From Celeribacter sp. PS-C1 (GTDB taxonomy: Bacteria; Pseudomonadota; Alphaproteobacteria; Rhodobacterales; Rhodobacteraceae), in the NCBI RefSeq assembly GCF_019429625.1, contig NZ_JAHXRW010000008.1:1-64000 (forward strand): DNA of 64,000 nt, in the 5' to 3' direction. This document shows, in pieces, positions 497-19,293 of the stretch. Position numbers and translations under genes: made by a program. Positions within the stretch are counted from its first letter, which is position 1. The number at the start of each line of letters is the position of its first letter. The notes beneath the pieces were generated by a model. The model ran no database searches and had not been told where the DNA came from. It saw only the letters and a list, made by a program, of their open reading frames with translations.

Positions 497-2149
497 TCAG
501 AGATCCAGTTTCGTGTAGAGATAGGATCGGGAAACGCCAAGGTATTCAGCGGCTTTCTTTTTGTTGCCATTGAACCGCGCCAAAGCATCAGCGATCAACT
601 TCTGCTCGAGATCATCCAGCGCGCCTTTCAACTTGCTCGGCGTTCGCGGACCTCCCTGCAGATCGGGTTTATCACCCTCCCCCATCATGGCCCCGCCATT
701 CTCAAAGTCGCGGACCGAGAGACGCCCCTCTTCCGCAAAAACAAAAGCGCGCTCAAGGATATGGCGGAGTTGCCGGATATTGCCCGGCCAGGATTGATCC
801 ATCAAATAGTGGGTCACATCGATATCGACCTCGGGAACCGTGCGATTGTGGTGCTCCGCGATCTCTCGAACGAAGTGATTGACCAAGAGCGGGATGTCTT
901 CAATGCGCTCTTCAAGGGTCGGCAATCTGATGACAATCGGGCTGATCCGGTAAAACAGGTCCAGTCGGAATTTCCCCTGATCCACGAAGGCCTCAAGATC
1001 GCGATTGGTCGCGCTGCACAGGCGGAAATCGACATGCTTGGGCTTGTCCCCGCCGACACGCTCGACAACCCGATCTTGCAGGACGCGGAGAAGCTTGGAC
1101 TGAACATCCAATGGCATATCTCCAATCTCGTCCAAAAAGATGGTTCCTTTGTCAGCCATCTCGAACTTGCCAGCCTTGCCCTTCTTCGCGGCGCCGGTGA
1201 ACGATCCGGCCTCGTATCCAAACAGCTCACTTTCGACGAGAGATTCAGGAAGCGCCGCCGCATTCACGGTCACCAATCGCGCATCTTGTCTCGCACTCAG
1301 CATGTGAAGCGCGCGTGCAACAAGCTCCTTCCCTGTTCCGCTTTCCCCTTGAATAAGAACGGGAATGTCCAGCGGCGCGATCTTGCGGATTTGTTGGCGA
1401 ACAGACTGAATGGCGGGGCTTTTGCCGATAATCGCGTCCAGAAAACTCTCGCTTTTATCCGTCTGGGTGATTTCTTTGGTGTGCTTCTTGTAGGTCTCGA
1501 CCTCAGCCTCGAGCACATTGATCCGGCGGGCCATGGCCTGAACCTGCTGGGGTCCTTTGAACATGACGCGACCGATCGCGCCGACGATCGCTTCATTTCG
1601 CCGAATGGGATGGCGCGACACCACCCGCTCACGGCTGCCCATCTTTTGAATCTGACCGACTTCGGCGATGCCCGTTTTGAGGACATGATGCAGGCGCGTG
1701 TTCTCGATCACGTCGCGCACAGGGCGACCGAGGCCTTCGCCCGCGCGCAATCCGAAAAACTTTTCATGAACGGGCGAAATATAGGCCAGCTTCGCCTTCG
1801 CATCGACCACGGCCATCGCATCGTAGGGATCCGTCAAAATGTGTTCGATGATGTCGTAGGCAAAATCGACGTTGAGGACGAAATTCAGAACGTTCTCACC
1901 GGGTTCATCCGAAAGCAGAACGATATAGCCACCGGAAACGGGCGCGACATGAGCGATGCATTTTGCATCGGCAAACAGCATCGGAACGATACGTTTTTCA
2001 CGCGCTTGGGCAATCCAGTCTTCGTCGGACACCATCGCCTGGATGCGAGGATCTTCCGCCTTTCCCAAGGCCGCAAGCACCTGTCCGTCCGTGCCTACGA
2101 TGGCAACTCCGACATGGCTACTAGCCGTTGCGAACTCCGTTCGTCCCAT
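497..2149 (-). CDS. Sigma-54-dependent enhancer-binding regulator (PAS, AAA+, Fis-type HTH)
   Basis: A 550-residue activator of sigma-54 RNA polymerase. In order: an N-terminal segment without a phosphoacceptor receiver domain, a PAS-like sensor at about 105-205, an AAA+ core at about 235-455 with Walker A GESGTGKE and Walker B FLDEIGD, and a C-terminal Fis-type helix-turn-helix ending in GNKKKAAEYLGVSRSYLYTK. The sigma-54 contact loop reads GSFTGA instead of the usual GAFTGA. The sensor architecture suggests direct response to a metabolite, not a kinase. The chosen ATG lies 4 nt after GGAGGG; an in-frame TTG four codons upstream overlaps that site and is less likely. It is divergent from rpoN and is the obvious activator for the sigma-54 promoters in this window (inference). 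Confidence 0.95.
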   Translation of the reverse strand: MGRTEFATASSHVGVAIVGTDGQVLAALGKAEDPRIQAMVSDEDWIAQAREKRIVPMLFADAKCIAHVAPVSGGYIVLLSDEPGENVLNFVLNVDFAYDIIEHILTDPYDAMAVVDAKAKLAYISPVHEKFFGLRAGEGLGRPVRDVIENTRLHHVLKTGIAEVGQIQKMGSRERVVSRHPIRRNEAIVGAIGRVMFKGPQQVQAMARRINVLEAEVETYKKHTKEITQTDKSESFLDAIIGKSPAIQSVRQQIRKIAPLDIPVLIQGESGTGKELVARALHMLSARQDARLVTVNAAALPESLVESELFGYEAGSFTGAAKKGKAGKFEMADKGTIFLDEIGDMPLDVQSKLLRVLQDRVVERVGGDKPKHVDFRLCSATNRDLEAFVDQGKFRLDLFYRISPIVIRLPTLEERIEDIPLLVNHFVREIAEHHNRTVPEVDIDVTHYLMDQSWPGNIRQLRHILERAFVFAEEGRLSVRDFENGGAMMGEGDKPDLQGGPRTPSKLKGALDDLEQKLIADALARFNGNKKKAAEYLGVSRSYLYTKLDL

Positions 2150-2203
2150 AGATCCCTCCAATTTTGCGCCCCGAAACGAGGAACAGCCTCCATTCAGCGC
2201 AAT

Positions 2204-2244
2204 AAAATGTCCATTTTGAAGTCAAGTCAACAAAATAATGTCCA
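2204..2244. promoter_or_regulatory. Paired AATGTCCA motifs in the regulator-rpoN divergent region
   Basis: The octamer AATGTCCA occurs at 2206-2213 and again at 2237-2244, 31 bp apart or about three helical turns. The first copy sits in an inverted AAAATG-TC-CATTTT. The flanking sequence is the only AT-rich part of the 247-bp divergent region. This could be an activator or autoregulator site. I did not find the octamer upstream of the three sigma-54 promoters, so the link to the regulator is unproven. Confidence 0.35.
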
Positions 2245-2396
2245 AAAAATGAACACAAACTCAGAAGCGCGATTACGGGGCGGCGCATCTCTCCATGTGC
2301 GACGACGCGCCTGGAGACAGCAGGGCCAGGATCCGCCAGCGCGCTGATAGGCCCCGCACTCATGTCCAACATTTCAAGCAGTAAGGGAGGACTGCC

Positions 2397-3878
2397 ATGT
2401 TACTTGAACGGAACCTTCATCTTCAGCAGAAGCAAAGCCTGCACATTTCAGCGCAGACCATCCAGTCGTTGAAAATTCTTCAATTCAGCCACGGCGAACT
2501 GTCGTCCTATCTCGAAGATCAAGCCGAGCGAAATCCGCTGATCAACCTCAAGCTGCCAAACCCGACCGACGCGATGCCGGAGCCGCCGACCGAAGCCAAA
2601 GGTCAGACGGAGAGGCTTACAGCGACAAACGCGCCAGGGTCCACTTTTGCGACGGAAAAAACGCATGCAATGCAAAGCGGAGGCGACAGCCTTGGTGCCC
2701 GCCCCTCACAAGGCCAAAGTCGCAAATCGCATGACATTCGCGATGCCATCGATGTTATCGAGGCCACCTGCCCCGCGAAGACCACCCTACGCGAGCATCT
2801 TCTCAGCCAGATCGGCTTTGCCTTTCGTGATCTCTCGGACCAGAGACTGGCTGCGGAACTGATTGAGCACTTTGATGGTGATGGGTATCTTCGCGCAAAG
2901 ACAACGACACTGGCTCCTATGCTCGGTGTCGATGCAGAGAAAATCGAAAAGACACTGAAAGTCATTCAGGGCTTCGATCCGGCGGGGGTTGGCGCCCGGG
3001 ATTTGGGGGAATGCCTGAAGATCCAACTCGAAGATCTCGGCAAACTTCGTCCTGAGATGGAAATCATGTTGGACCACATCGATCTCCTCGCAAAATTCGA
3101 CATTTCCCGTCTGGCTTCCCTGACCGGAACGAGCCGGGACGCCGTCCTGGAGATGGCGAAAGAAATTCGCACGCTCGACCCGAAACCCGGTCGCAAATTC
3201 GACGACAGCCCCACTCTTTCCGCCTATCCAGACATTTTGGTCAACCGGACGCGAGACGGTCGGGTCACCGTCGAGCTGAACAGCGCTCTGCTCCCGCGTG
3301 TTCTCGTTGACAGACAATATTATGCAGAAATCAAAACGCAGCGCCTGAACGAGCAGGACAAAAGGTTTGTCGTCGATTGTATGAAAAATGCGGGTTGGCT
3401 GACAAAGAACCTCGACCAACGCGCCCAGACGATCCTGAAAATCGCCACGGAAATTGCCCGCAAACAAGATCGCTTTCTGCGCGACGGGCCGGAGCACTTG
3501 CGACCGCTCGGCCTGAAGGATGTCGCCGCGGCCGCAGGCGTCCATGAATCCACCGTATGCCGGGCCATTGCCAACAAATACATGATGACCGCGCATGGGC
3601 TGTTCGAGCTGAAGTTCTTCTTCTCCAACTCTTTGGCCTCTCTGGACGGCGGCGAAGACCAGTCTTCGGAAACTGTCCGGCATAAGATCAAACAGTTGAT
3701 CGATGCGGAGAAACCGGAGGCGGTGCTCTCAGATGACGCAATCGTTGCGCAACTTCAGTCCTCAGGCATCGAGGTCGCGCGCCGCACAGTGGCCAAATAC
3801 CGCGACATGATGCGCATTCCATCCTCTCCCCAACGCCGCCGCGAAAAGAGGGCGAAAGCAAAATTCAATTTCGCATGA
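2397..3878 (+). CDS. rpoN: RNA polymerase sigma-54 factor (probable second rpoN copy)
   Basis: A 493-residue full-length sigma-54. Region I is glutamine/leucine-rich (QKQSLHISAQTIQSLKILQFS), followed by the acidic/variable region II, the core-binding part, the HTH that reads the -12 element (around DVAAAAGVHESTVCRAI), and near the C-terminus the RpoN box ARRTVAKYRD, which reads the -24 element; the usual last residue of the box is E. The start follows AGGGAGGA with normal spacing. The usual rpoN neighbours (lptB, hpf/raiA, ptsN) are absent; instead it is flanked by an activator gene and a catabolic operon. This points to a paralogue serving a local regulon, as described for multiple rpoN copies in Rhodobacter sphaeroides. 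That it is not the only copy is inference. Confidence 0.97.
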   Translation: MLLERNLHLQQKQSLHISAQTIQSLKILQFSHGELSSYLEDQAERNPLINLKLPNPTDAMPEPPTEAKGQTERLTATNAPGSTFATEKTHAMQSGGDSLGARPSQGQSRKSHDIRDAIDVIEATCPAKTTLREHLLSQIGFAFRDLSDQRLAAELIEHFDGDGYLRAKTTTLAPMLGVDAEKIEKTLKVIQGFDPAGVGARDLGECLKIQLEDLGKLRPEMEIMLDHIDLLAKFDISRLASLTGTSRDAVLEMAKEIRTLDPKPGRKFDDSPTLSAYPDILVNRTRDGRVTVELNSALLPRVLVDRQYYAEIKTQRLNEQDKRFVVDCMKNAGWLTKNLDQRAQTILKIATEIARKQDRFLRDGPEHLRPLGLKDVAAAAGVHESTVCRAIANKYMMTAHGLFELKFFFSNSLASLDGGEDQSSETVRHKIKQLIDAEKPEAVLSDDAIVAQLQSSGIEVARRTVAKYRDMMRIPSSPQRRREKRAKAKFNFA

Positions 3879-3890
3879 ACGCGCGCGAAG

Positions 3891-3906
3891 TTGGCACAGG
3901 ACTTGC
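3891..3906 (+). promoter_or_regulatory. Sigma-54 (-24/-12) promoter of the DUF35-MaoC-MmgE operon
   Basis: TTGGCACAGGACTTGC has the canonical -24 TGGCAC and -12 TTGC with exactly 10 nt between the invariant GG (3893-3894) and GC (3905-3906). Expected transcription start is about 3917, giving a leader of roughly 170 nt before the first gene. It begins 12 bp after the end of rpoN, so rpoN sits directly upstream of a promoter its product should read. Confidence 0.85.
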
Positions 3907-4091
3907 GCCTCTCCGCTTAAGCCAACTGAACCTGAACGAAAACATGCCTGAAGTTTCCAAAGATATCCTGCGCGCCGACGCATCTCACAGATTCGAGCTG
4001 CCTGAGTGAGCCAAGCGATGGGACCTTATGGGACGCAGACATCAGACTATCCGCGCTCAAACAGAGCGCCGACTTTGGAGGAGTGACACCT

Positions 4092-4490
4092 TTGACCGAA
4101 ATATCCCGCTATGCCAACGGCGACTCCATGGAATACTGGAAGGCCGCTCAGGAAGGACGTCTGATCTTTCAAAAATGCGCATCTTGTGGCGAAATCCAGT
4201 TCCCACCGCGCCACCATTGCGCCTCATGCTGGGAAGCCGATCTTGGCTGGACTGAAAGCTCCGGACTGGGAGAAGTGGAAAGCTACACCATCGTACGTCG
4301 CGCTCCGCTGCCCCAACTCCGCGACAAAGTCCCCTATGTCGTCGCCGCAATCCTCGTCGAGGAAGGCCCTCGCATGCTGACGAACCTCGTGGGGGAGGAT
4401 GCACTCAACGTTGCAATCGGCGCGAAGGTCAAAGTCGTTTTTCAGACAGATGCCGACGACGAAACCCTGCCACAATTCCAATTGGCCTGA
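4092..4490 (+). CDS. Zn-ribbon/OB-fold (DUF35) acyl-CoA-associated protein
   Basis: A small protein of about 132 residues with an N-terminal rubredoxin-like zinc ribbon (KCASCG, then HCASCW, two CxxC pairs about 11 residues apart) and a C-terminal OB fold. Members of this family work as partners of thiolases or aldolases acting on CoA thioesters (for example the small subunit in BbsAB or the ChsH2/Ltp2 pairing) and are often next to MaoC genes, as here. It has no catalytic residues of its own that I can name. Start choice: GGAGGA ends directly against a GTG at 4083, so the in-frame TTG at 4092 has better spacing; 4083 remains possible. It is first in a four-gene operon. Confidence 0.85.
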   Translation: MTEISRYANGDSMEYWKAAQEGRLIFQKCASCGEIQFPPRHHCASCWEADLGWTESSGLGEVESYTIVRRAPLPQLRDKVPYVVAAILVEEGPRMLTNLVGEDALNVAIGAKVKVVFQTDADDETLPQFQLA

Positions 4491-4594
4491 CACTGGCCTG
4501 AAGAAGATCCACAAACGCCGTCCACAAACCGGAAGTCCACAGGACATATCCGAAGCGATCTGCGCGGCACAGAAACACCACGAGGAGACATCAA

Positions 4595-5056
4595 ATGACC
4601 GCACCGGTTCGAGGAAAATACTGGGAAGATTTCGAAGTCGGAGAGACGATTTACACCCCCAAACGCACCGTGACCTCCACGGATATCGTCAACTTCGCTT
4701 GCCTGACCGGGGACTTCAATGAAGTCCATACCAACTGGGAATATTGCAAGGAGACGCAGTTCGGCGAACCGATTGCACATGGCCCACTGGTCTATTCGAT
4801 TGTCGGCGGCCTGCAATATGCCTCTGGTATCAACGATGGAACCCTCATTGCCTTGCTGCAGATTGATGGTTGGCGCATGCTCAAACCCGTGTTCCACGGT
4901 GACACCATCCATGCTGAACTCACCGTCGTCGCAAAGAACGAGACCAGCAAACCCGACAAAGGGGTGGTTTCGATGAAACGTGAATTCAAAAATCAAAAAG
5001 GCGAGACGGTACAGGAAATGGACGTCAAAATGCTCTACAAACGCCGCCCGTCCTAA
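4595..5056 (+). CDS. MaoC-family (R)-specific enoyl-CoA hydratase-like protein
   Basis: A 153-residue hot-dog-fold protein. The hydratase-2 signature is clear: FACLTGDFNEVHTN supplies the catalytic Asp and His, and GEPIAHGPLVYSIVGG is the following conserved helix. Members hydrate 2-enoyl-CoA to (R)-3-hydroxyacyl-CoA. The ATG follows GAGGAG with good spacing. It lies between the DUF35 gene and two MmgE/PrpD genes behind the sigma-54 promoter. The neighbouring crotonase-type hydratase on the other strand gives the (S) isomer, so this one probably acts on a different intermediate or as a partner of the DUF35 protein (inference). Confidence 0.92.
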   Translation: MTAPVRGKYWEDFEVGETIYTPKRTVTSTDIVNFACLTGDFNEVHTNWEYCKETQFGEPIAHGPLVYSIVGGLQYASGINDGTLIALLQIDGWRMLKPVFHGDTIHAELTVVAKNETSKPDKGVVSMKREFKNQKGETVQEMDVKMLYKRRPS

Positions 5057-5086
5057 ACCTGTCCTTGCGACCGAAGTGAAAAGCAC

Positions 5087-6469
5087 ATGACTGACACAGC
5101 AGATATATCTTACGACTTCGCCAGAGTGGTCACCGAAACGCAGTATGATGACATCGACGCAGAGTCTCGCGACCGCGCGAAACAGAGCATCATGGACACG
5201 CTCGGTGTGATCATCGCCGCGAGTTCCCTCACTCCAAAAATCGGCGCCATATCTGATCTGACGTTGGAAATGGGCGGCACACCAGAAGCCACGATGCTTG
5301 GCTTCGGCGGCAAAGTGCCGGCCTTGAATGCGGCCTTTGCAAACGGCGCGATGGCGCATTGTTTGGATTTCGACGACCATGCGCCGGAAGGTCATCACCC
5401 AAGCAGTTCCATCGTGCCGTCAGCTTTCGCACTCGCGGAACGCGCAGGTGCCGTGTCCGGCAAGGAAATGATTGCCGCAACGGCCATCGCCCAAGACATG
5501 TTCCTGCGCATTCGCCGCAATGTCTCCTGGAAACAGGACTGGCATCTGACCACAATCATCGGCGGCCTCTCCGCGGCGGCGGCCTGCGCACGCGTAATCA
5601 AACTCGACCACGCCCAAACTGTCAGTGCGATTGGAATTGCCGGCCATCAAGCGTCCGGAACCATGGAACTGGCATATGGGACCGGAAGCGATTTGCGTGG
5701 CATGTATGCCGGCTTCGTATCGAAACAGGCGACCCTTGCCGGATTGATGGCCCAGCGCGGCATTGTCGGGCCCGGATCGATGATGGAAGGTCGGGCGGGT
5801 TTCTTCGCGACCTATTTAGACGGCAAATACGATCGCGACGCGATGCTCGCAGATCTCGGAACAAATTTCACGGGGCATGCGGTTCAATTCAAGGCATGGC
5901 CATCCTGCGGCCTGACACACTCCTACATTCACGCCATGTCCTGCCTGATGAAAGAACAAGGGCTCACACCCGACGATCTCAAACAGATCACAGTCCATGT
6001 CGGAGATTTTCAGGAGCGGCTTTGCACTCCGATCGAAGACAGACGCGCCCCCAAAGTTCCCGTCGATGCAAAGTTCAGCATTCCCTATTGCGTCGCCGTC
6101 GCGGCCGTCCGCGGCACGGTTGGTTTGAGTGATTTCACGGAAGACGCTTTGGAAAACACGGACGTTTTGAGCGTCGCATCCAAAATCGTCGCGGAACCCG
6201 ATCCGTCCGGTGACTGGGACGGGAAACTGCCCTACGGTCGCGTCTCCGTCATCACACAGGATGGGCGCACCTTCACACGGATCGGGGATCAAGTGCCGGG
6301 AGAATCCGAGGCTCCAATGGACTGGGAGTATATTGTGCAAAAATTCCGCGAAGCTGCCTCTTTCTCGCATAAGCCGTTGGAGAACGCTCAGATCGACCGG
6401 GCCGTTGACATGATTCAGGATCTCGAGAACCTGAACGACGCCACCCACATCATTCGCGCCCTCTCGTAA
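5087..6469 (+). CDS. MmgE/PrpD family protein (first of a tandem pair)
   Basis: A 460-residue member of the MmgE/PrpD superfamily, which includes 2-methylcitrate dehydratase and cis-aconitate decarboxylase. The N-terminal all-helical domain carries HCLDFDDH (the family motif region) and HHPSSSIVPSAFALAE; the C-terminal domain begins around KAWPSCGLTHSYIHA. Length matches the family. No citrate/methylcitrate synthase or prpB lies nearby, so a methylcitrate role is unlikely. In this setting it may hydrate/dehydrate or decarboxylate a branched or cyclic carboxylic acid (inference). It starts 30 bp after the MaoC stop. Confidence 0.9.
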   Translation: MTDTADISYDFARVVTETQYDDIDAESRDRAKQSIMDTLGVIIAASSLTPKIGAISDLTLEMGGTPEATMLGFGGKVPALNAAFANGAMAHCLDFDDHAPEGHHPSSSIVPSAFALAERAGAVSGKEMIAATAIAQDMFLRIRRNVSWKQDWHLTTIIGGLSAAAACARVIKLDHAQTVSAIGIAGHQASGTMELAYGTGSDLRGMYAGFVSKQATLAGLMAQRGIVGPGSMMEGRAGFFATYLDGKYDRDAMLADLGTNFTGHAVQFKAWPSCGLTHSYIHAMSCLMKEQGLTPDDLKQITVHVGDFQERLCTPIEDRRAPKVPVDAKFSIPYCVAVAAVRGTVGLSDFTEDALENTDVLSVASKIVAEPDPSGDWDGKLPYGRVSVITQDGRTFTRIGDQVPGESEAPMDWEYIVQKFREAASFSHKPLENAQIDRAVDMIQDLENLNDATHIIRALS

Positions 6470-6492: not shown

Positions 6493-7845
6493 ATGGACAA
6501 AACGACAAGCCGTATGGCCGAGACAATCTCAACCCTGCGGTTTGACGATTTTTCACCGGAGGTCATTCACGAAACAAAGCGACGTCTTCTGGACAGCGTC
6601 GGCTGCGCCGCTGGCGCATTCCAATACCCGCTAAGCCAAACAATGCGAGACCTCGCAGGCCGAGAAAAAGGGCTTCCGCCAGCGCGTGTCTGGTTTACCG
6701 GGGCCGAAAGCACATTGGACGCTGCGGGTCTCGCGAACGGCACGATGGTTCGATATTTGGACCTGAGCGATACGATCCTGAGCAAAGCGGCGGGTCACCC
6801 AAGCGACATGATTGCTGCCCTGGTCGCTCTGGCGGAAACCCTCGAGGCAGATGGAAAAACTCTCATCACCGCAATCGTGGCCGCCTATGAGGCTTACGGT
6901 CAGCTCTGCGATGCCGTCGCTTTTCAAAAATCCGGGATCGATCAATCAACCGCCGCCGCACTCGGAGCCGCGGCAGGGGCCAGCCACCTGTTGAATCTTG
7001 ATCAAGAACAGACGGGTCAGGCCCTGTCTCTCGCCCTTGGCGCCAACGTCAATCTTTACAACGTCCGCCAAGGCGCGCTTTCAGATTGGAAAGCCATCGC
7101 CGGCCCAAATGCCGCCCGCAACGGCGTCTTTGCCGCGCAAATGGCCGCCGAAGGCTTATCCGGTCCAAGCGCGATATTCGACGGCGCCTACGGCCTCAAA
7201 CATATCACTGGGCCTTTCGAGTTCGGTTCCGAAGGAGCACAGCGGCTTCGCATTCTGGACACGCACCTCAAGGCCTATCCGGTCTGCTACCACGGACAAT
7301 CGGCTGTTGATGCAGCCATGGCCCTGACAGGCAAATTCGCCCCCGAAGACATCCAAACTGTGCGTATTGAAACCTATGATGCCGCTTTCTTGGTTATGGG
7401 GAATGACGGCAGTCGCTGGGCTCCCAAAAACCGTGAAACGGCTGATCACAGCATCCCCTATGTGGTTGGCACCGTCTTCATGACAGGAAATTTGCGACCC
7501 TCGGATTATGACGAGGAAAGCCTGAATTCCCCTGCCCTGCAGGACTTCCTGCCAAAAATTGAGGTGCGATCCTCAGAGGCATTTTCGGCGCTTTATCCGG
7601 GACAAGCCCGCACGCGTATCACCGTCGAAACCCGCACCGGACAGATTGAAACCTCGGAGACCTTGCAACCCAAAGGGCACGTCGAAAACCCCATGAGTGA
7701 TGAGGAATTGGTGCAAAAGTTCGATGGGCTCTGGCCAGAGACATTCAGCGACCATGGAAAATCCAGCATTCTCGACAGGATTTGGAACATCGACACTTTG
7801 GACAGTGTCAAAATTCTTGTGGACGCCCTGTGTGACTACAACTGA
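6493..7845 (+). CDS. MmgE/PrpD family protein (second of a tandem pair)
   Basis: A 450-residue paralogue of the preceding protein. It follows an AAGAAGG ribosome site 24 bp after the preceding stop. The region equivalent to HCLDFDDH reads RYLDLSDT here, so the usual FDD(T)H part is changed and the two proteins probably do not have the same reaction or are subunits of one complex. HPSDMIAALVALAE and KAYPVCYHGQSAVDAA are the other family landmarks. It is the last gene of the operon and converges with the metallo-hydrolase gene. Exact substrate unknown. Confidence 0.88.
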   Translation: MDKTTSRMAETISTLRFDDFSPEVIHETKRRLLDSVGCAAGAFQYPLSQTMRDLAGREKGLPPARVWFTGAESTLDAAGLANGTMVRYLDLSDTILSKAAGHPSDMIAALVALAETLEADGKTLITAIVAAYEAYGQLCDAVAFQKSGIDQSTAAALGAAAGASHLLNLDQEQTGQALSLALGANVNLYNVRQGALSDWKAIAGPNAARNGVFAAQMAAEGLSGPSAIFDGAYGLKHITGPFEFGSEGAQRLRILDTHLKAYPVCYHGQSAVDAAMALTGKFAPEDIQTVRIETYDAAFLVMGNDGSRWAPKNRETADHSIPYVVGTVFMTGNLRPSDYDEESLNSPALQDFLPKIEVRSSEAFSALYPGQARTRITVETRTGQIETSETLQPKGHVENPMSDEELVQKFDGLWPETFSDHGKSSILDRIWNIDTLDSVKILVDALCDYN

Positions 7846-8825: not shown

Positions 8826-9725
8826 TCACTCCGCTGGGAGCAGTTCGCGAACGATACCAACGAAATTCTGCAAGATGGCTTCCGAGGCGTCATTGGGCCA
8901 GACGAGGCGAAGCTGGCTTCGGTAGCTGAGATCACGAAGCGGAATGACCTGTATGTCATCTGGATATTGCAAGCTTGGCGACATCACGACCAGCCCCACC
9001 CCCATGCCCACAGAGATCAGGTTGATCTGAATGGCAATGTTGGACACCTGCTGAACGATCCTGGGCTGAAACGGGAAATATGGGTTCACGAGAGACCCGC
9101 CCACAATGATGAATCCTTCTTGGCTAAGATCAGCGAGTGCGAGCGTCTCACTTCCCGCCAAACGATGATCTTGGGGGATCGCGACCCCGATGCCACATTC
9201 TTCGAGCAAAACAGAATTGAACTCGCTGATACTTTCCGATCCCGGCAGCGAAATCGTGTGCATTGAAGGATCTTGTGCAACCCAGACAAAACCAGCGTCG
9301 AGTTTTCCGTTGCGGATATCTTCGATCTGCAGACTACTTTGCAATTCCAAGAGAATGAGATCAGTGTCGGGATAGAGCGCCCCCATTTTCTTGACCGCCT
9401 CTCGAAACATCGGATGGCGCAAACCGAGCGAGCCATAGCCAATCGTCAGCGTGCCCTGTTTGCCTTGACCAACGCGTTTGGTGGTCTGCACAGCCGCCGC
9501 AATATCCTGCAGGATAACCTTCGCATGTTTGAGCATGGTCTCACCCGCCGCCGTCAGCGACACCTTTTGCGCGTGACGGTCAAACAGCTTGACCCCCAGC
9601 TCCAGTTCCAGATCAGCAATGGTTTGGGAGACCGCCGGACGGGTGACCGAAAGCACCTCGGACGCACGACCGAAATGCAGTTCTTCCGCAGCCGCGACAA
9701 AGTATCTGATATGGCGCAGTTCCAA
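8826..9725 (-). CDS. LysR-family transcriptional regulator
   Basis: A 299-residue LysR protein. The N-terminal winged HTH is at about 1-60 (MELRHIRYFVAAAEELHFGRASEVLSVTRPAVSQ is the recognition region) and the rest is the effector-binding domain. The N-terminus resembles the CatM/BenM/CbbR branch used for aromatic-acid regulation. The start is a TTG, supported by GGGAGGAAG 7 nt upstream and by alignment of the MELRHIRYF start. It is in the same direction as the acyl-CoA operon, 76 bp after it. It may add substrate-specific control on top of sigma-54 (inference). Confidence 0.93.
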   Translation of the reverse strand: MELRHIRYFVAAAEELHFGRASEVLSVTRPAVSQTIADLELELGVKLFDRHAQKVSLTAAGETMLKHAKVILQDIAAAVQTTKRVGQGKQGTLTIGYGSLGLRHPMFREAVKKMGALYPDTDLILLELQSSLQIEDIRNGKLDAGFVWVAQDPSMHTISLPGSESISEFNSVLLEECGIGVAIPQDHRLAGSETLALADLSQEGFIIVGGSLVNPYFPFQPRIVQQVSNIAIQINLISVGMGVGLVVMSPSLQYPDDIQVIPLRDLSYRSQLRLVWPNDASEAILQNFVGIVRELLPAE

Positions 9726-12302: not shown

Positions 12303-13465
12303 TTGCTGATAAAACTCCGTCCAATGAGCTGGCGGTGAACCTGATTGGTTCCCTCCCAAATCTGAGTGATTTTGGCGTCACGCATCAGACGCTCCGCACG
12401 ATAATCGCGGCAATAGCCATACCCACCGAGAAACTGGACGCATTCCGTCGCCATCTTCATCGAGAGATCGGTGGCCCGCAGTTTGGCGACCGATGCCTCC
12501 ATCCCGAAATCCGTTTCTCCGCCATCCACCAGATCGGCGACATAGTCGATCCAGCGCTCCACCATGAGCAATTCACAAGCGAGATCCGCAAGGGTGAACT
12601 GATTGCCTTGAAAATCCAGAATCTTCTTGCCGCCCTGAACGCGTTCATTGCTGTAGGCAACCATGTCCTTGAACGCGGCGCGGGCAATACCACGCGCATG
12701 CGCAGCCACCGAAGGACGCGACTTGTTCAAAGAGGCCAGAAGGATACGCAAGCCATCTCCTGGCTCGCCGATCAGGTTCGCGCGCGGCACACGCATGTTG
12801 TCGAACGCAAGAGCGCAGGTCGATGAACCGTTGTGACCCATCTTCTTCTCCTTGCCGACGACACTGAAACCTTCGGTTCCTTTTTCGACAATCAGTACGG
12901 AGATCGCTTTCTTCGGGTCTTCGATCTCGGACCATTTCCCGAACAGCAAGATCCGGTCTGCAACATCTCCGTTGGTAATGAAGATCTTGTTGCCCTTGAC
13001 GATGATGTCATCGCCATCAGGTGTGAACGACGTCTTCATGCCGGTCGCGTCAGACCCCGCCGATGGCTCCGTAATCGCCAAGGCTCCAAGGCCTCCCTCG
13101 GCGATCTGTGGCAAGAGCCGCTCTCTCTGTTCGTCGCTTCCGAAGTCGATCAATGGCTTCATGCCATGGTAGTTCGTCGCATAGATGATTCCGGTCGACG
13201 CACAGGCCTCCGAGATAATCGATACGATTTCGAGATAGAGTTTGTAGGACAGCGGCATGCCACCGAAGGCTTCCGGGATGAAGACAGCATTCAATCCCAG
13301 AGCGTTGATCGCTTCGACGTTTTCCCAAGGGAATTCGCCGGACGCATCCACCTGCTCGGCGTTCGGAGAGATAATGTCATCTACCATGCGCTGCACTTGA
13401 TCGAGGATCTGACGTTCCTCGTCGTTCCAATGCCGTTCTCGCGCAATTTTCTCTAGTAGCTTCAT
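12299..13465 (-). CDS. Acyl-CoA dehydrogenase (AliB-like position in the pathway)
   Basis: A 388-residue FAD acyl-CoA dehydrogenase. ITEPSAGSDATGM and GNKIFITNGDVAD are the family signatures of the middle domain; QFLGGYGYCRDYRAERLMRDAK and IWEGTNQVHRQLIGR lie at the C-terminus, the latter in the region usually carrying the catalytic glutamate of short-chain-type enzymes. It forms a 2-enoyl-CoA and passes electrons to ETF. Given its operon partners, the cyclohexanecarboxyl-CoA dehydrogenase (AliB) role is the simplest assignment, but butyryl- or 2-methylacyl-CoA cannot be excluded. Its ATG shares one base with the SDR stop (TGATG). Confidence 0.93.
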   Translation of the reverse strand: MKLLEKIARERHWNDEERQILDQVQRMVDDIISPNAEQVDASGEFPWENVEAINALGLNAVFIPEAFGGMPLSYKLYLEIVSIISEACASTGIIYATNYHGMKPLIDFGSDEQRERLLPQIAEGGLGALAITEPSAGSDATGMKTSFTPDGDDIIVKGNKIFITNGDVADRILLFGKWSEIEDPKKAISVLIVEKGTEGFSVVGKEKKMGHNGSSTCALAFDNMRVPRANLIGEPGDGLRILLASLNKSRPSVAAHARGIARAAFKDMVAYSNERVQGGKKILDFQGNQFTLADLACELLMVERWIDYVADLVDGGETDFGMEASVAKLRATDLSMKMATECVQFLGGYGYCRDYRAERLMRDAKITQIWEGTNQVHRQLIGRSFISK

Positions 13466-14169
13466 CAGTGGTTCATCCCTTGCGCACCGTCGATGTAGAT
13501 GGTCTCTCCGGTCAGAAAGCCGATCTTCTCTGCAAAAATCGCGGAGACCAGACGGGCGACATCTTCTGCTTTACCGGGGGCTCCGACCGGAATACGGCTG
13601 GCCATCCAGGCTTTGACTTTTTCTTTCGCGAGGTAGTCGCGGTTCAAATCCGTTTCGATGTAGCCGGGGGCGACGGTCATGACCCTGATCCCGTCGCGCG
13701 CCCATTCCACAGCCATACAGCGCGTCATTGCCGCGACCGCCGCTTTCGAAGCGCAATATGCGAGGTTGTCAGGAACACCGAGTTTGTCAAAGAACGACCC
13801 GATATTCACAATCGTCCCGCCATCCTCCCTGAGATAGGGATACGCCTCCCGCGCCGCGACCATTACAGCCGTCGCATTCAGCGCCATTGTCTCGTTGAAA
13901 CTCTCGACCGTCAGCGATGCGATCGGGCCACCGATATGGACGCCCGCGTTGTTCACGAGACCGATGATCGGCCCTCGCTTTGCGGCCTCCGCAAAAGCCG
14001 CCTTAACAGCCTGTTCGTCTGTCATGTCGCATTGGATCTGGTGCCCGACAGGCCCGCCCCCCGAACGGGACAGGCATACGATCTCATAGCCGCGCCCCTG
14101 CAACTCCTGTGCGATCGACGCCCCAATGCCCTTGGAGGCGCCTGTCACGATAATCTGCCCCTCACTCAT
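13465..14169 (-). CDS. Short-chain dehydrogenase (BadH-like position in the pathway)
   Basis: A 234-residue SDR. TGASKGIG is the cofactor-binding glycine motif, NNAGV the structural motif, and YCASK the catalytic Tyr-x3-Lys, with a serine in IVNIGSF. It has a FabG-like C-terminus (TGETIYIDGAQGM). Candidate reaction: 2-hydroxycyclohexanecarboxyl-CoA to 2-ketocyclohexanecarboxyl-CoA, the step before ring opening, because the flanking genes encode the hydratase before it and the hydrolase after it. The ATG at 14169 overlaps the hydratase stop by 8 bp; a longer in-frame reading exists upstream but runs into the hydratase gene. Confidence 0.92.
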   Translation of the reverse strand: MSEGQIIVTGASKGIGASIAQELQGRGYEIVCLSRSGGGPVGHQIQCDMTDEQAVKAAFAEAAKRGPIIGLVNNAGVHIGGPIASLTVESFNETMALNATAVMVAAREAYPYLREDGGTIVNIGSFFDKLGVPDNLAYCASKAAVAAMTRCMAVEWARDGIRVMTVAPGYIETDLNRDYLAKEKVKAWMASRIPVGAPGKAEDVARLVSAIFAEKIGFLTGETIYIDGAQGMNH

Positions 14170-14932
14170 CCCTGAACTCCGGTTTACGTTTCTCTTCGAA
14201 GGCAGCCATGCCCTCTTCGGCGTCTTTGGTCTGATAGGCGAGGGTCGACAGATCCGCCTCGACACGGAGCCCCTCCGCAAGAGGCAACTCATGCGCCCTC
14301 TGCACAGCACAGCGGGCAAATTCGAGCGCAGGAAGACTGTACCGCGTGAAGCGATGCGCGAACGCGATCCCGGCCTCCATCAGATCGCCCTCAACCACTG
14401 CGTTGACCAAGCCGATCCGCTCGGCTTCCTCCGCGTTCACATTGCGGCCCGTCATGATGATTTCCAAAGCACGCCCCTCACCGATGAGGCGCGGCAAGCG
14501 TTGGGTCCCGCCATAGCCCGGTATCAGACCGAGTTTAATCTCCGGGAGCCCGAAAATCGCCGCCTGAGACGCCAAGCGGAAGGTACAGGCCAGAGCCAAC
14601 TCTGCCCCGCCCCCAAACGCATAGCCGTTCACCAGAGCGACGGAGGCAATCGGTAGGGCGTCGAGCTTGGCAAACACCGTCTGGCCAAGCTCCGCACCCC
14701 GTTTTTGGGCAATCAGTGAGCGGTTGCGAAGCTCCTTGATGTCCGCGCCTGCACAAAACGCTTTGTCACCGGCACCTGTGACGAGCAGAGCACGCACATC
14801 ACTCATGCGGGCAACATCGTCGATGGCCGATCCGATCTCTTCCAAAATCTGAAAGGACAGCGCATTCAGCGCTTCGGGGCGGTTCAACCGCAAAATGGCA
14901 ATGTCACCGTTCTTTTCGAGTTCAACGCTCAT
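14162..14932 (-). CDS. Enoyl-CoA hydratase (BadK-like position in the pathway)
   Basis: A 256-residue crotonase-fold hydratase. Both catalytic glutamates are present, in GGGAELALACTFR and GLPEIKLGLIPGYGGTQRL, and the oxyanion-hole motif AFCAGADIKEL is intact, so it should be a true hydratase. It acts on a 2-enoyl-CoA; in the proposed pathway this is cyclohex-1-ene-1-carboxyl-CoA. The ATG overlaps the ligase stop (ATGA). It differs clearly from the other crotonase of the operon, which has the BadI/MenB features. Confidence 0.93.
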   Translation of the reverse strand: MSVELEKNGDIAILRLNRPEALNALSFQILEEIGSAIDDVARMSDVRALLVTGAGDKAFCAGADIKELRNRSLIAQKRGAELGQTVFAKLDALPIASVALVNGYAFGGGAELALACTFRLASQAAIFGLPEIKLGLIPGYGGTQRLPRLIGEGRALEIIMTGRNVNAEEAERIGLVNAVVEGDLMEAGIAFAHRFTRYSLPALEFARCAVQRAHELPLAEGLRVEADLSTLAYQTKDAEEGMAAFEEKRKPEFRDE

Positions 14933-16548
14933 GTGACTTTCTCCTCGATATATCTCACGGGAGCCGGCTCGATCTCTCCGCGCCTCACCATGTCGCTCAA
15001 CGCACGCTTCAGGATTTTTCCGCTGGCCGTCAGCGGCAGTTCCGGCACCGCCAGAAACCATTCCGGCATATCGAATTTCGACAAACCTTCGCGTGCGAGA
15101 TGGCTCAACATCTCATCAGCGGACAGATCTCCGATCACGGCCAGACAGACTTTCTCCCCCAGGCGATCATCAGCGACGCCAAAGGCCGCCGCTTTTTCGA
15201 CAGCGCGATGTGTCAAGGCGAGCGCTTCGATCCGGGATGGGTAGATGTTATGGCCACCACGGATGATCAGATCTTTGATCCGACCGTCGATATGGAGATG
15301 ACCATGCTCATCGAAAAAACCGAGGTCTCCGGACAGGAGATAGCCATGTTGGTTGAACGTCTCTTCGGTCGCCTTCTGGTTCGCGAAATAGCCCAGCATC
15401 ATCGCCGCACCACGTCCGCCGATTTCCCCGGATTGTCCTTGCGCCACTTCCATATCCGGATTTTCCGGGTCCCAGATGCGAACGTCGTAGGCCTCACCGC
15501 CTCGTCCGCAAGTGGAGATCATCACCTCAAGCGTGTCTCCCGGATGCGTATACTGATGTGAGGAGCATTCCGTCATGCCATAGACATTTTGCGGCGCGAT
15601 GCCCTGATCCAGAAAAGACTGCGCGACGATCTCGGGGATCGGCGATCCGGCCATGTAGAACGACTTAACCTGACCGATCCGTTCCGCGCCCGCACGTTTC
15701 TGCGCAGCGAGAATATCCATCGCATGTGTGGGCACCCCCAACACATATGTCGCCCCCGTCTCCACGACCCAATCAAAGCGAGACATGCCTTCTGGCGCAT
15801 CATCGGTCACCAGTTGTCCGCCACAGACAAGCCACTGCGCCGCCGCCACCCAAGCGATATGGTGGGACAAAGGGCTCAGCGTGAGGATCACCGCCTCTTC
15901 GTCCAACGCCCAGTCACGCACCAGATCGCGCGCATTTGCCAACAACGTATTGCAGGAATGCATGACGCATTTCGGCTTTCCGGTCGTCCCGGAGGTGAAA
16001 GCGAGATAGGCCACGCTGTCCGGATTATCATGAACCCGTCTTTCAACGGTGATGATGTGCCTCGGCATCTTTTCAGGCGTGTAGACTTTTTCCAGAAACG
16101 GCAACTCCGAGAGCATCGCGTCGAAATCACAATGCCCGCGGTCGGCGCCCCATCCGGCCTCAGTGACAAGCGCCTTGCTGCCAAGTTCGGTCAAAAGATC
16201 GATGATTTCCGCGCATGTATAGGTCCGGTGCAATGACGGGTTGCACGCAATACCCTCGCGCGAACATGCAAGAAATGCGATCACACCTTCCACACGATTT
16301 GACAGCCAAAGCGACACGCGATCCCCGGCCACGATCCCGCGCTCCGCCAGGTCATCCGCCATGGCGTCGACACGTGCCTTCAGCCCCTCCCAATCAAGCG
16401 ACTGCCGACCGTCCCTGAGCGCCAGTGCATTCGGGCGCTTCTTTTCATGCTTGGCCATGAGATCGTAGAACGTCTCGTCGCACCAATGCCCCGCCGCATA
16501 GTGACGGCGCGCTTCAGCAGGATCGTGTAAGGTCAGAATGGGTCTCAT
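14929..16548 (-). CDS. Acyl-CoA synthetase (AMP-forming), cyclohexanecarboxylate-CoA-ligase-like
   Basis: A 539-residue ANL-superfamily ligase that activates a carboxylic acid to its CoA ester with ATP. AYLAFTSGTTGKPKCVM is the phosphate-binding loop, YGMTECS the A5 motif, SGDLGFFDEHGHLHIDGRIKD the A7/A8 hinge and TASGKILK carries the catalytic lysine. The N-terminal layout resembles AliA-type and related medium-chain or alicyclic acid ligases. It is second in the operon, 9 bp after the BadI-like gene, and provides the entry step for whatever the neighbouring ABC importer takes up (inference). Confidence 0.93.
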   Translation of the reverse strand: MRPILTLHDPAEARRHYAAGHWCDETFYDLMAKHEKKRPNALALRDGRQSLDWEGLKARVDAMADDLAERGIVAGDRVSLWLSNRVEGVIAFLACSREGIACNPSLHRTYTCAEIIDLLTELGSKALVTEAGWGADRGHCDFDAMLSELPFLEKVYTPEKMPRHIITVERRVHDNPDSVAYLAFTSGTTGKPKCVMHSCNTLLANARDLVRDWALDEEAVILTLSPLSHHIAWVAAAQWLVCGGQLVTDDAPEGMSRFDWVVETGATYVLGVPTHAMDILAAQKRAGAERIGQVKSFYMAGSPIPEIVAQSFLDQGIAPQNVYGMTECSSHQYTHPGDTLEVMISTCGRGGEAYDVRIWDPENPDMEVAQGQSGEIGGRGAAMMLGYFANQKATEETFNQHGYLLSGDLGFFDEHGHLHIDGRIKDLIIRGGHNIYPSRIEALALTHRAVEKAAAFGVADDRLGEKVCLAVIGDLSADEMLSHLAREGLSKFDMPEWFLAVPELPLTASGKILKRALSDMVRRGEIEPAPVRYIEEKVT

Positions 16549-16557
16549 GCTGCGCCC

Positions 16558-17337
16558 TCACTGACCAAATTTCGACGGGTCCGGTGCGCGTCGCTCATTG
16601 AAACTCGTGTTGAGCTCCTTATGCTCCTCCGTGCCCAGATATTGGCTCAGCAAAAGATCATGCGTGACCCGGGACAGGCCTCCGACACCGCCATGGCGCG
16701 CATTGAACGCCCCTTTGATGGAGGCAAGAGCAAACGCGCCGCGCTCGGCAATCTCGAGCGCATATTCCAACGTCTTTTCTTTAAGTTGATCATCTGGCAC
16801 CACCCGATTGATCAGGCCGATGCGTGCCGCTTCCTCGGCGGAAATTTTCGGATTGGTGTACCAGATGTCCTTGGCACGCTTCTTGCCGACCAGATCTTCA
16901 AGATACCATGTGCCATAACCGGCATCGAAGGAGCCCATCATCGGCCCGACCTGACGGAAGACCGCGCTCTCCTTGGCGATGGTCACATCACAGACCATCT
17001 GGAGGACATTGCCCCCCCCAACTGCGAAACCGTTGACGCTGGCGACGACCGGTTTTTGTAGCTTATCGATGGCTTCATACATCTCGAGCGTCGGCAACAC
17101 GCCCGCATAGAGCTTGGTCTTTTCCATGCCATCTTTCTGGCCGCCGATACAGAAAAAGCGATCCCCGGCGCCGGTCAACACGACAACGCGGGTTCGAGTC
17201 TCTCGCCGAATTTTCTCGATGCAGTCCCGAATTTCGTGGCACATGGTCTCCGTGAACATATTGCCGTTGTCGGGGCGATTGAGGGTGATGATCCCGACAG
17301 GACCGTCTTCCTCGTAAGTAATTTCGCTGAATGTCAT
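16558..17337 (-). CDS. BadI/MenB-type crotonase: probable 2-ketocyclohexanecarboxyl-CoA hydrolase
   Basis: A 259-residue crotonase of the ring-forming/ring-opening subgroup. The diagnostic block QVGPMMGSFDAGYGTWYLEDLVGKKRAKDIWY is split by the family into VGPxxGSFDxGYG and GxKxAxxIW, shared with BadI (ring-opening hydrolase giving pimeloyl-CoA) and MenB (naphthoate synthase). No other menaquinone gene is present and this bacterial group mainly uses ubiquinone, so a BadI-like C-C hydrolase fits better. It is first in the operon, about 170 nt after the predicted sigma-54 start point. GGAGGA abuts the ATG at 17343, so the second ATG at 17337, 6 nt on, is preferred. Confidence 0.88.
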   Translation of the reverse strand: MTFSEITYEEDGPVGIITLNRPDNGNMFTETMCHEIRDCIEKIRRETRTRVVVLTGAGDRFFCIGGQKDGMEKTKLYAGVLPTLEMYEAIDKLQKPVVASVNGFAVGGGNVLQMVCDVTIAKESAVFRQVGPMMGSFDAGYGTWYLEDLVGKKRAKDIWYTNPKISAEEAARIGLINRVVPDDQLKEKTLEYALEIAERGAFALASIKGAFNARHGGVGGLSRVTHDLLLSQYLGTEEHKELNTSFNERRAPDPSKFGQ

Positions 17338-17519
17338 TTTCATTCCTCCCAGAACACTTTTTCAACCCAACGCCGTATCTGCTCTTGCCAAACGCTCATC
17401 GCGTGACGCGGTCATTCCCAAACAAGCCAAGCCCTCTCCGAGCGCCCAGGTTGAGAACCTGGACGAGAGATCGTTAGGGCAACGCCCCGAGCTTTTGCTC
17501 ATGTCATGTCAATGAAAGC

Positions 17520-17536
17520 GCAATTCGCATGCCAAC
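17520..17536 (-). promoter_or_regulatory. Sigma-54 (-24/-12) promoter of the BadI-ligase-hydratase operon
   Basis: Reading the minus strand: GTTGGCATGCGAATTGCG, with TGGCAT as -24, TTGC as -12, and exactly 10 nt between GG (17533-17532) and GC (17521-17520). The only deviation from the consensus is T for C at the sixth base of TGGCAC. The expected start is near 17508, leaving a leader of about 170 nt, very similar to the leader of the plus-strand operon. Confidence 0.78.
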
Positions 17537-17552
17537 TCGGCGAAATCGCAGT

Positions 17553-17587
17553 GGCCCGCACAGTAAAAACTTAAGAACGTGCGGGCC
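17553..17587. other. Inverted repeat between the ABC operon and the sigma-54 promoter
   Basis: GGCCCGCAC (17553-17561) and GTGCGGGCC (17579-17587) form a perfect 9-bp stem around a 17-nt AT-rich loop. It lies 25 bp past the end of the permease gene and just upstream of the sigma-54 promoter. No run of T follows, so it is either a terminator without U-tract or a protein-binding dyad. Confidence 0.5.
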
Positions 17588-17612
17588 TTGGCGCTGAGTA
17601 TCTCGATTGAAC

Positions 17613-18380
17613 TCAGATCGAGATTTCCCGTTTTTGTTTTGCTTTTTCCCAGGGCATCGAAATGCGCGCCAGAAGGCTGACCCCGGTATTCATCAGCACC
17701 GACATGGTGATAATCGCAACGAGAGCCGCGAACACACCCGCGGTGTTGAACTGGCTCGAAGCATGAGACAGCAGGTAGCCGAGTCCGCGGTTTGCCGCGA
17801 TCATTTCACCAACGATCGCGCCGATCATTGCGTAAGGCACGGACAAACGCAGCCCCGTAAACACCCAGACGATGGCCGAGGGTAGCACCACTTTGCGCAT
17901 CACATCGCGCTCATTGGCCCCCATCAAGCGCATGATGTTTACCAGTTCCTGACTCACACTGCGCACACCGGTGTAGGTGTTGAGGAAGACGAGGAAGAAC
18001 ACAATCGTCGCCGTCAGCAGGATCTTCATTTCGATCCCGATCCCGAACCAGATGATGAACAGCGGTGCCAAAGCAATTTTGGGGATACTGTAGAAGGCCA
18101 TAATGAAGGGATTCAGCAGCTCAGCGAGCTTTTCCGCACGCCCGAGGATCAAGCCAATCGTCATGCCGACGAAAGCCCCGAGCAGGAAGCCCGCAATCGC
18201 TTCAATCGCCGTAATCCCGGCATGGAAAAAGATACGTCCGTCCAGCAACCATTCCCAGAAAGTCGCCGCGATGTCGCTCGGCGTGCTGATCAGATATTTC
18301 TGAATCAGTCTCCCGGAGGCGAACTCCCAAAACCCCAAGAATGCCGCGAGGATTCCCAATCTCGATATGAACATGATCAT
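17613..18380 (-). CDS. ABC importer permease (TauC/SsuC/NitT-like)
   Basis: A 255-residue inner-membrane permease with about six hydrophobic segments. The EAA loop is at LMGANERDVMRKVVLPSAIVWVFTGLRLSV. The family imports sulfonates, nitrate, taurine, thiamine precursors or aromatic/aliphatic acids. It starts 3 bp after the ATPase stop. With the adjoining ligase operon and a shared type of promoter, uptake of the carboxylic acid fed to the ligase is the best guess. No solute-binding protein gene is adjacent on either side. Confidence 0.93.
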   Translation of the reverse strand: MIMFISRLGILAAFLGFWEFASGRLIQKYLISTPSDIAATFWEWLLDGRIFFHAGITAIEAIAGFLLGAFVGMTIGLILGRAEKLAELLNPFIMAFYSIPKIALAPLFIIWFGIGIEMKILLTATIVFFLVFLNTYTGVRSVSQELVNIMRLMGANERDVMRKVVLPSAIVWVFTGLRLSVPYAMIGAIVGEMIAANRGLGYLLSHASSQFNTAGVFAALVAIITMSVLMNTGVSLLARISMPWEKAKQKREISI

Positions 18381-18383
18381 GTT

Positions 18384-19211
18384 TTAGTTCTCCCCTGCGG
18401 CCGCCGAAGGCGCCATTTCATCCCAAAGTCGCGCGGTCAGTTGCACATATTGCGCATTGTGACGGATGCTGAACAAATCGCGCTCGCGCGGAAGCGGAAT
18501 GTCGAGCACCTCACTGATCGTTCCGGGACGTCCCGAAAACACAACGCAGCGATCCGCAAGTGCAACGGCCTCGTCCAGATCATGTGTCACGAACAGGACA
18601 GTCTTGTTCAGCTGCGCCACGATGCGGCGAATTTCCATCTGCATCTTGAGACGCAATTGCGCATCCAGCGCAGCGAATGGCTCATCGAACAAAAGCGTTT
18701 CCGGATCGTACGCAAGCAGCCTTGCCAGAGCGCAGCGCTTGCGCATCCCACCCGAAAGTTCACTCGGATAGTGGTCACCAAACCCCGTAAGCCCAACGAG
18801 ATCCAAAAGTTCATCGACACGGTCACGGATCTCGCCCCGAGAAAGTTTGGCGATTTCGAGCGGCACCGCAATGTTGCGCGCCACGGTGCGCCAATGCAGC
18901 AGATGATCGCTCTGAGTCATGTAGCCCACTTTTTGATTGTAGGGCTCGACGGGGACGCCCCCATAGGTGACGGTCCCTTCGGTCGGGGCGAACAATCCGG
19001 CCGTCATGTTGAGCAATGTCGATTTCCCGCACCCAGAAGGGCCGACCAGCGTCAAGAACTCTCCTTCGCGGACAGAGAGCGAAACATCGCGCACTGCCTG
19101 CAAAGCTCCAAACGATTTCGAAACCGCGTCAAACCTTACCAGCTCGGGTTTTGCCTCTGTGTGAGGCGCTGCGCTTCGAGCGACCATTTGGTCTACTTTT
19201 TCTGCTTGCAT
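18384..19211 (-). CDS. ABC importer ATP-binding protein (TauB/SsuB-like)
   Basis: A 275-residue ATPase partner of the preceding permease. Walker A VGPSGCGKST, signature LSGGMRKRCALAR, Walker B TLLFDEPFAALD and the switch histidine in FVTHDLDEA are all present. The ATG at 19211 has GGAGGAG upstream; a longer reading to 19247 is less supported. It sits about 55 nt after the predicted sigma-54 start point and is first in a two-gene unit. Confidence 0.94.
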   Translation of the reverse strand: MQAEKVDQMVARSAAPHTEAKPELVRFDAVSKSFGALQAVRDVSLSVREGEFLTLVGPSGCGKSTLLNMTAGLFAPTEGTVTYGGVPVEPYNQKVGYMTQSDHLLHWRTVARNIAVPLEIAKLSRGEIRDRVDELLDLVGLTGFGDHYPSELSGGMRKRCALARLLAYDPETLLFDEPFAALDAQLRLKMQMEIRRIVAQLNKTVLFVTHDLDEAVALADRCVVFSGRPGTISEVLDIPLPRERDLFSIRHNAQYVQLTARLWDEMAPSAAAGEN

Positions 19212-19276
19212 TAAAGTGTCTCCTCCAAAACCGCTGCCATTCTTCAAATGACAACAGATCTACTGAAATTTGATAT

Positions 19277-19293
19277 CGCAATTGCTGTGCCAA
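19277..19293 (-). promoter_or_regulatory. Sigma-54 (-24/-12) promoter of the two-gene ABC importer
   Basis: Minus strand: TTGGCACAGCAATTGCG, a full match to TGGCAC and TTGC with 10 nt between GG (19291-19290) and GC (19279-19278). It shares TTGGCACAG with the promoter at 3891. The expected start lies near 19266, 55 nt before the ATPase ATG. The other parts of the 386-bp gap between this operon and the next plus-strand gene hold nothing I recognise. Confidence 0.85.

Follow-up and report, generated by a model that had tools for sequence, protein, structure and literature searches.

A probable transferable, self-contained sigma-54 regulon for the CoA-linked breakdown of acids in Celeribacter sp. 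PS-C1

Bases 1-64000 of contig C39 of Celeribacter sp. PS-C1 (the whole stretch analysed, hereafter the window) carry a gene for the sigma factor sigma-54 (rpoN), a gene for a sigma-54 activator beside it, and operons preceded by -24/-12 promoters. Judged from the sequence, this island very probably represents a transferable, self-contained sigma-54 regulon for the coenzyme A (CoA)-linked breakdown of acids that are probably alicyclic. The source genome (G000) comprises 3.87 Mb in 40 contigs and is 99.96% complete; its RpoN is the only sigma-54 found in it, a single competent activator accompanies it, and the regulon consists of roughly eight promoters on contigs C39, C4 and C24. For comparison, we used a family sample of 394 genomes, about one per genus, and a genus sample of 20 genomes. 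Of the genomes that recur below, G246 is 95% complete and G273 only 73%, while Salipiger abyssi is represented by its plasmid pPABY4 only, its chromosome lying outside the rpoN counts. Nine plasmid records were examined among the activator matches listed; an unannotated Methylorubrum record was not used.

The two regulatory genes of the window are divergent neighbors:

500-2149, minus strand: sigma-54 activator (bacterial enhancer-binding protein, bEBP) with a PAS-containing N-terminal sensor, an AAA+ domain with a GSFTGA loop, and a Fis-type helix-turn-helix (HTH)
2397-3878, plus strand: rpoN, with three sigma-54 Pfam domains above cut-off, the NCBIfam rpoN equivalog model passed, and the RpoN box ARRTVAKYR

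The RpoN domains matched are the activator-interacting (AID), core-binding and DNA-binding domains of Pfam. The activator matches the Pfam sigma-54 interaction domain and the Fis-type HTH, and its GSFTGA motif is an L1 loop of the GAFTGA type. Its PAS score lies just under the PAS cut-off (20.5 vs 22.6 bits), and a PAS match was present in all 12 of 12 aligned activator proteins at E <= 1. Across the whole genome the DNA-binding domain, Sigma54_DBD, was matched once, which makes rpoN 2397-3878 the sole copy found. An RpoN query against genome contigs returned 12 loci, the RpoN matches being at 29-37% identity. The sigma-54 interaction domain PF00158 was matched in 12 stretches belonging to 10 proteins; eight of these belong to the activator type, and the sequences of the remaining two are Clp-like. 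The window activator alone of the eight carries a GAFTGA-type loop; the other seven, which we take to resemble relatives of NtrC, NtrX, HupR, DctD and AcoR, are without it. The one sigma-54 and the one competent activator of this genome thus adjoin each other. HupR of Rhodobacter capsulatus is a known example of lost sigma-54 contact (PMC3162934).

Three promoters of the -24/-12 type accompany this pair:

3892-3906, plus strand: promoter TGGCACAGGACTTGC, 13 bp past the rpoN stop and ahead of the OB-fold/MaoC/MmgE operon
17520-17534, minus strand: promoter TGGCATGCGAATTGC, heading the operon that runs from BadI to the quinone oxidoreductase
19278-19292, minus strand: promoter TGGCACAGCAATTGC, heading the ABC (ATP-binding cassette) importer operon

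The domains, the GSFTGA loop and these consensus sites confirm what an earlier note on this DNA had read from its letters, namely that rpoN, a divergent activator and three such promoters lie together. Its remark that rpoN is without its usual neighbors was also borne out: in Sinorhizobium meliloti, rpoN is flanked by lptB and raiA-ptsN, and no such context is seen here. The pattern TGGCAY-N5-TTGC occurs five times in the window against 0.39 expected, a count reached by 0 of 100 dinucleotide shuffles. Two of the five sites (16872, plus strand; 21857, minus strand) lie inside coding sequence, so chance matches do occur, and the three promoter sites are the non-coding ones. For sites of the PS-C1 genome, the distinction between coding and non-coding comes from a codon-usage score of our own making, for which 16 genes of the window served as training set. 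Because the whole-genome average is 0.51 sites per 64 kb, and that of the rpoN-less G260 is 1.09, the position of a site weighs more than the count. With two mismatches allowed, sites were no commoner than chance (76 found vs 73.4 expected); only near-perfect sites therefore carry weight, and we rejected loose matching as evidence. At the base that follows TTGC (-11), the three window promoters all have G, as do 38 of 62 aligned sites. Base -11 is reported to be important for the choice between RpoN1 and RpoN2 in Cereibacter (Rhodobacter) sphaeroides (PMC11999139).

The earlier note had suggested looking in related genomes for co-conservation, and the divergent, adjacent rpoN/activator pair (hereafter the cassette) indeed recurs in six replicons besides the window, making seven: the window, G246, G259, G273, G400, C. 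indicus plasmid pP73A and S. abyssi plasmid pPABY4. The activators of these cassettes are 64-69% identical to the window activator, and their RpoN proteins approximately 39-50% identical to the window RpoN; activators at 60% identity or more are found in four of the 394 family genomes, PS-C1 included. A promoter site follows the rpoN stop in seven of seven cassettes (TGGCAC in six, CGGCAC in G259), and a consensus site also lies upstream of rpoN in three of the seven. The marine bacteria C. indicus (pP73A, a repABC plasmid) and S. abyssi (pPABY4) both carry the cassette on a plasmid, and in C. indicus it contains the sole rpoN found. If activators in the same 200-bit class are counted, those that have a GAFTGA-type loop number one each in G000, G246 and G400, and two in C. 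indicus, both on pP73A.

In a tree of 40 RpoN rows, the seven cassette proteins form one clade (support 100/99, present in 100% of 200 bootstrap trees) that is sister to three rhizobial RpoNs (97/94) and is separate both from the 29 remaining rows of the family and from an alphaproteobacterial metagenome-assembled genome (MAG). The G273 row is a long branch. The rows were drawn from the 29 best family loci (one of them the G246 cassette), the other cassettes, G401, the MAG and the three rhizobial sequences. Left out were eight genus RpoN loci with an unrecognized RpoN box, one delta-proteobacterial row, Smithella, the G396 locus, further G259 and G273 copies beyond G259:C7, and the remaining family genomes with rpoN.

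These results bear on the proposal of the earlier note that the window rpoN is a specialized paralogue serving these operons in place of a main, general RpoN, as in C. sphaeroides; the note had itself named a sole rpoN in the genome as grounds for abandoning this idea. The adjoining activator and the local promoters agree with such specialization, as does the occurrence of the cassette as one copy among several in G259 (three rpoN genes) and G273 (two). However, one rpoN each was counted in C. indicus (G399), G400 and G246, and a search of the rest of the PS-C1 genome, at the completeness given above, found no second copy beside the single Sigma54_DBD. The window rpoN is therefore not a paralogue. 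We give this explanation only a very small probability, and for this genome it is already refuted unless the assembly misses a second copy. The note's other proposal, a self-contained module, was strengthened, as the sole rpoN and the sole GAFTGA-type activator found form the very pair that occurs in the seven replicons.

We then considered the sites outside the window. Counting both strands, the genome has 61 matches to TGGCAN6TTGC, whereas the reversed pattern has 28. Of 31 sites of the TGGCAY-N5-TTGC form, the codon-usage score assigns 20 to coding and 11 to non-coding sequence, and eight of these 11 lie on C39 (three), the right end of C4 (three) and C24 (two). Downstream of the C4 sites are genes with homologues on pP73A, namely those for a hypothetical protein (80% identity), a CoA-transferase (72%) and an ABC substrate-binding protein (42%). 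One site of the C24 pair precedes genes for a CoA-transferase and a dehydrogenase (about 30% identity), and the other runs off the contig. C1, C11 and C34 hold the three remaining non-coding sites. No gene of the pP73A type was found in the vicinity of the C1 and C11 sites, and a cupin at 65% identity lies near the C34 site, yet not downstream of it.

Such a scatter, 31 sites with three non-coding ones away from the module contigs, is what favors reading RpoN as an ordinary general sigma-54 that by chance lies beside one of many regulated clusters. Yet most of the sites are coding, most of the non-coding ones are on C39, C4 and C24, and no other activator was found with the loop needed for sigma-54. 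Furthermore, similar or larger scattered counts occur in rpoN-less congeners (53 in G260 and 32 in G410, the latter listed in part), so that scattered sites need no sigma-54, and none of the nine activator loci of the rpoN-less G260, G398 and G410 showed a GAFTGA-type loop (one locus, L173, is without a readable frame). A general sigma-54 is thus unlikely. Raw genome site counts were rejected as evidence on account of the 53 sites of G260. In that genome the same pattern reversed has eight matches, so the 15-mer is over-represented without sigma-54, perhaps for coding reasons.

On pP73A, 21 of 22 TGGCAY-N5-TTGC sites are intergenic and no more than 243 bp upstream of a gene on the same strand, in a plasmid that is 7.8% non-coding; on pPABY4 (9.5% non-coding) this holds for 19 of 19 sites, the farthest being 170 bp upstream. 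Across 300 permuted patterns the mean was 0.5 site per plasmid, with a maximum of seven on pP73A and eight on pPABY4, and permuted sites upstream of a gene numbered at most two and one, respectively. Half of the sites in the whole C. indicus genome (22 of 44) are on the 155-kb pP73A, and a single contig of G400 holds 15 of its 26 sites. Plasmid pP73A has two copies of the core ring-acid operon (67844-75424 and 103306-109876; L178/L132), several genes of which have identical protein accessions, and both copies are headed by a consensus sigma-54 site.

Sigma-54 itself is far from universal in this family. An rpoN scored over cut-off in 130 of the 394 family genomes (141 at E <= 0.001; 126 of the 347 more complete ones) and was present in 11 of the 20 genomes of the genus. 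The genus members G260, G398, G410 and G000 keep AAA+ regulators, presumably NtrC/HupR/DctD-like, in which the GAFTGA loop has changed or is missing (GAFPSA, GALPGL, deletions). In G401, another member of the genus, the single rpoN on contig C1 has a GAFTGA activator about 17 kb away in either direction (95839, 112901, 130758; open frames of 417 and 391 aa). This set is perhaps flagellar, and it may be a general feature of the family that rpoN is paired with an activator nearby.

Beyond the cassettes, kin activators at 42-55% identity occur in Aminobacter (two, near-identical), Achromobacter (two), Burkholderia multivorans, Paraburkholderia and Cupriavidus. None of these seven Hyphomicrobiales and Burkholderiales kin has an adjacent rpoN, as judged from annotation and tblastn of stretches of 19-32 kb; in B. 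multivorans rpoN lies about 104 kb from the activator on the same record. Six of the seven adjoin an acyl-CoA operon, five of them with BadI at 77-81% identity, and the operon head carries TGGCAY-N5-TTGC in six of six cases (two being the near-identical Aminobacter). Two further members of the class, only one of which has a consensus site, showed no rpoN within the 4.5 kb examined. Since the kin keep the promoter with no rpoN adjacent, the pair of activator and operon seems able to use the RpoN of its host. In the cases that were examined, an rpoN of its own is carried by the Celeribacter/Salipiger family alone.

The genes of the three operons, with the LysR gene between them, are as follows:

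4083-4490, plus strand: Zn-ribbon/OB-fold protein, with relatives at 63-67% identity that follow rpoN in four cassettes
4595-5056, plus strand: MaoC-like hydratase
5087-6469, plus strand: MmgE/PrpD family protein 1
6493-7845, plus strand: MmgE/PrpD family protein 2
8826-9725: LysR regulator gene inside the island
9802-10797, minus strand: quinone oxidoreductase-type dehydrogenase, final gene of the core operon
10794-12300, minus strand: 3-hydroxyacyl-CoA dehydrogenase
12299-13465, minus strand: acyl-CoA dehydrogenase (AliB-like position)
13465-14170, minus strand: short-chain dehydrogenase/reductase (SDR; BadH-like position)
14162-14932, minus strand: enoyl-CoA hydratase (BadK-like position)
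14929-16548, minus strand: acyl-CoA ligase (AliA-like position)
16558-17343, minus strand: BadI/MenB-like ring hydrolase
17613-18380, minus strand: ABC permease (SsuC/TauC type)
18384-19211, minus strand: ABC ATPase

The core operon presumably holds the five enzyme types of cyclohexanecarboxylate (CHC) breakdown, which we take to be those shared with the bad/ali pathway: ligase, acyl-CoA dehydrogenase, hydratase, SDR and a BadI-like ring hydrolase. The regulators of bad/ali in Rhodopseudomonas and Aromatoleum are of other types. Orthologues of BadI at 82-87% identity were found in exactly those three further genomes of the family sample that have this activator, such that a BadI orthologue (E <= 1e-80) and the activator (at least 60% identity) co-occur in the same four of 394 genomes, PS-C1 included. 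Unlike bad/ali genes, the window sequences fell below the cut-offs of the NCBIfam models for badI (207 vs 467.6 bits), CHC-CoA ligase (219.3 vs 792.3) and CHC-CoA dehydrogenase (278.5 vs 650). The substrate is probably an alicyclic or similar ring acid, and these scores under cut-off in the curated models tested are the reason for saying no more than probably. In Rhodopseudomonas and Aromatoleum the pathway is described as anaerobic (PMC9795900). The importer proposed in the earlier note stands in part: the permease and ATPase genes are in place (17613-19211), but no substrate-binding protein is encoded there. The candidate on C4 may be the missing part.

From these families and sites a mechanism can be proposed. 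The PAS/AAA+/Fis activator would sense a cytosolic signal, probably the pathway substrate or a CoA intermediate. Its GSFTGA loop would then remodel RNA polymerase carrying the RpoN encoded next to it, and this holoenzyme would transcribe from the TGGCAY-N5-TTGC sites observed ahead of the three operons. By carrying its own sigma factor, the regulon could work in a host that has no sigma-54; that much of the family is without rpoN may be why the cassette brings one. We judge it an even question whether the whole system (sigma factor, activator and approximately 8-22 dispersed promoters) moves as one, often plasmid-borne, unit, in which a rhizobial-type RpoN is joined to a catabolic activator that elsewhere uses the host RpoN, and so installs sigma-54 in lineages without any.

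Several results weigh against a transferable, self-contained regulon. The window genome has far fewer promoters than pP73A, and they are spread over three unjoined contigs (C39, C4 and C24). A search of the window genome for RepC gave no match, in a search that had no positive control and did not extend to other plasmid types; a plasmid location of the window copy is thus no more than possible. G259 and G273 carry further rpoN copies beside the cassette, so the notion that it fills a sigma-54 gap fails for some hosts. The second close activator of C. indicus is not adjacent to rpoN, the activator tree leaves rpoN-linked and unlinked Roseobacter activators unseparated, and L223, one of the two further class members, shows no consensus site within the 4.5 kb examined. 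As to the contigs, C24 ends with a divergent pair of sigma-54 sites (4650-4762), and C39 begins inside a gene:

1-434, plus strand: 3' end of a pcaF-type thiolase

Given this start, the module may continue beyond the contig, and C39, C24 and the right-hand end of C4 may be fragments of a single island.

A final difficulty is the enhancer. In the regions upstream of the promoters, no conserved enhancer (upstream activating sequence, UAS) motif was detected by expectation maximization (EM), dyad or aligned-column searches, which used the sites of pP73A, pPABY4, G400, the window, C4 and C24, and not those of G246, G259 and G273. The first EM motif was rejected as an enhancer, as it was the back-to-back promoter itself. 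After the promoters were masked, exact dyads surpassed the shuffles slightly or not at all, and EM gave a different motif at each width, though each scored above three shuffled controls; the aligned upstream columns hold essentially the promoter only. Fifteen back-to-back site pairs, on pP73A, G400:C14, pPABY4 and G000:C24, have only 30-138 bp between their -24 elements, which leaves little room for a classical enhancer. The absence of a motif, together with the LysR gene, would suit a decayed module whose promoters are relics and whose operons are read from a sigma-70-type promoter, for example under the LysR regulator. But rpoN, the activator and the operon genes are all open frames, and the -24/-12 elements are kept at shared positions in relatives despite the divergence of their RpoN proteins noted above. 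We find such decay quite improbable.

The sigma-54 regulon proposed here has partial counterparts in known systems. Of the four RpoNs of C. sphaeroides, some have a partner activator that is known (RpoN1 with NifA, RpoN2 with FleQ, RpoN3 with AprX; PMC11999139). There too, a given RpoN works with a given activator on a limited gene set, and AprX also has a GAFTGA/GSFTGA loop; unlike in the window, the four copies serve nif, flagellar and ctrA-related genes. In PS-C1, by contrast, no RpoN was found besides that of the window, which is encoded amid catabolic genes and divergently from its activator, in a cassette that occurs on plasmids. A study of R. capsulatus (PMC6925177) describes one RpoN that is needed only by NifA and AnfA, NtrC working with RpoD, and an rpoN that is activated by its own regulon, as the three cassettes with a site upstream of rpoN may suggest here. 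Unlike the cassette, that rpoN lies in a nifU2-rpoN operon for nitrogen fixation, not catabolism, with no divergent activator pair.

The rhizobia share with the cassette a plasmid-borne rpoN, and, as noted, a sister relationship of RpoN. In Rhizobium etli, rpoN is on the nif plasmid with nif-type neighbors and no divergent PAS activator beside it, and the species also has a chromosomal rpoN. Bradyrhizobium DOA9 is likewise reported to have a plasmid rpoN plus a chromosomal one (PMC13207237, PMC9977809). Multiple rpoN copies are present in about 5% of organisms, according to a recent survey (PMC12316311). In literature on plasmid rpoN, Roseobacter/Rhodobacteraceae rpoN, C. indicus plasmids and cyclohexanecarboxylate with sigma-54, searched at the level of titles and abstract openings and with subscription literature thinly covered, we did not find the cassette described.

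Sigma-54 is usually described as one global factor that serves many activators. Here, it looks pathway-specific and seems to travel together with activator and promoters. Confirmation of this would show how a sigma-54 regulon can enter a host without sigma-54, and would provide a natural portable expression system. Plasmid pP73A, with one sigma factor, two activators and about 21 promoters, would then be a compact test bed.

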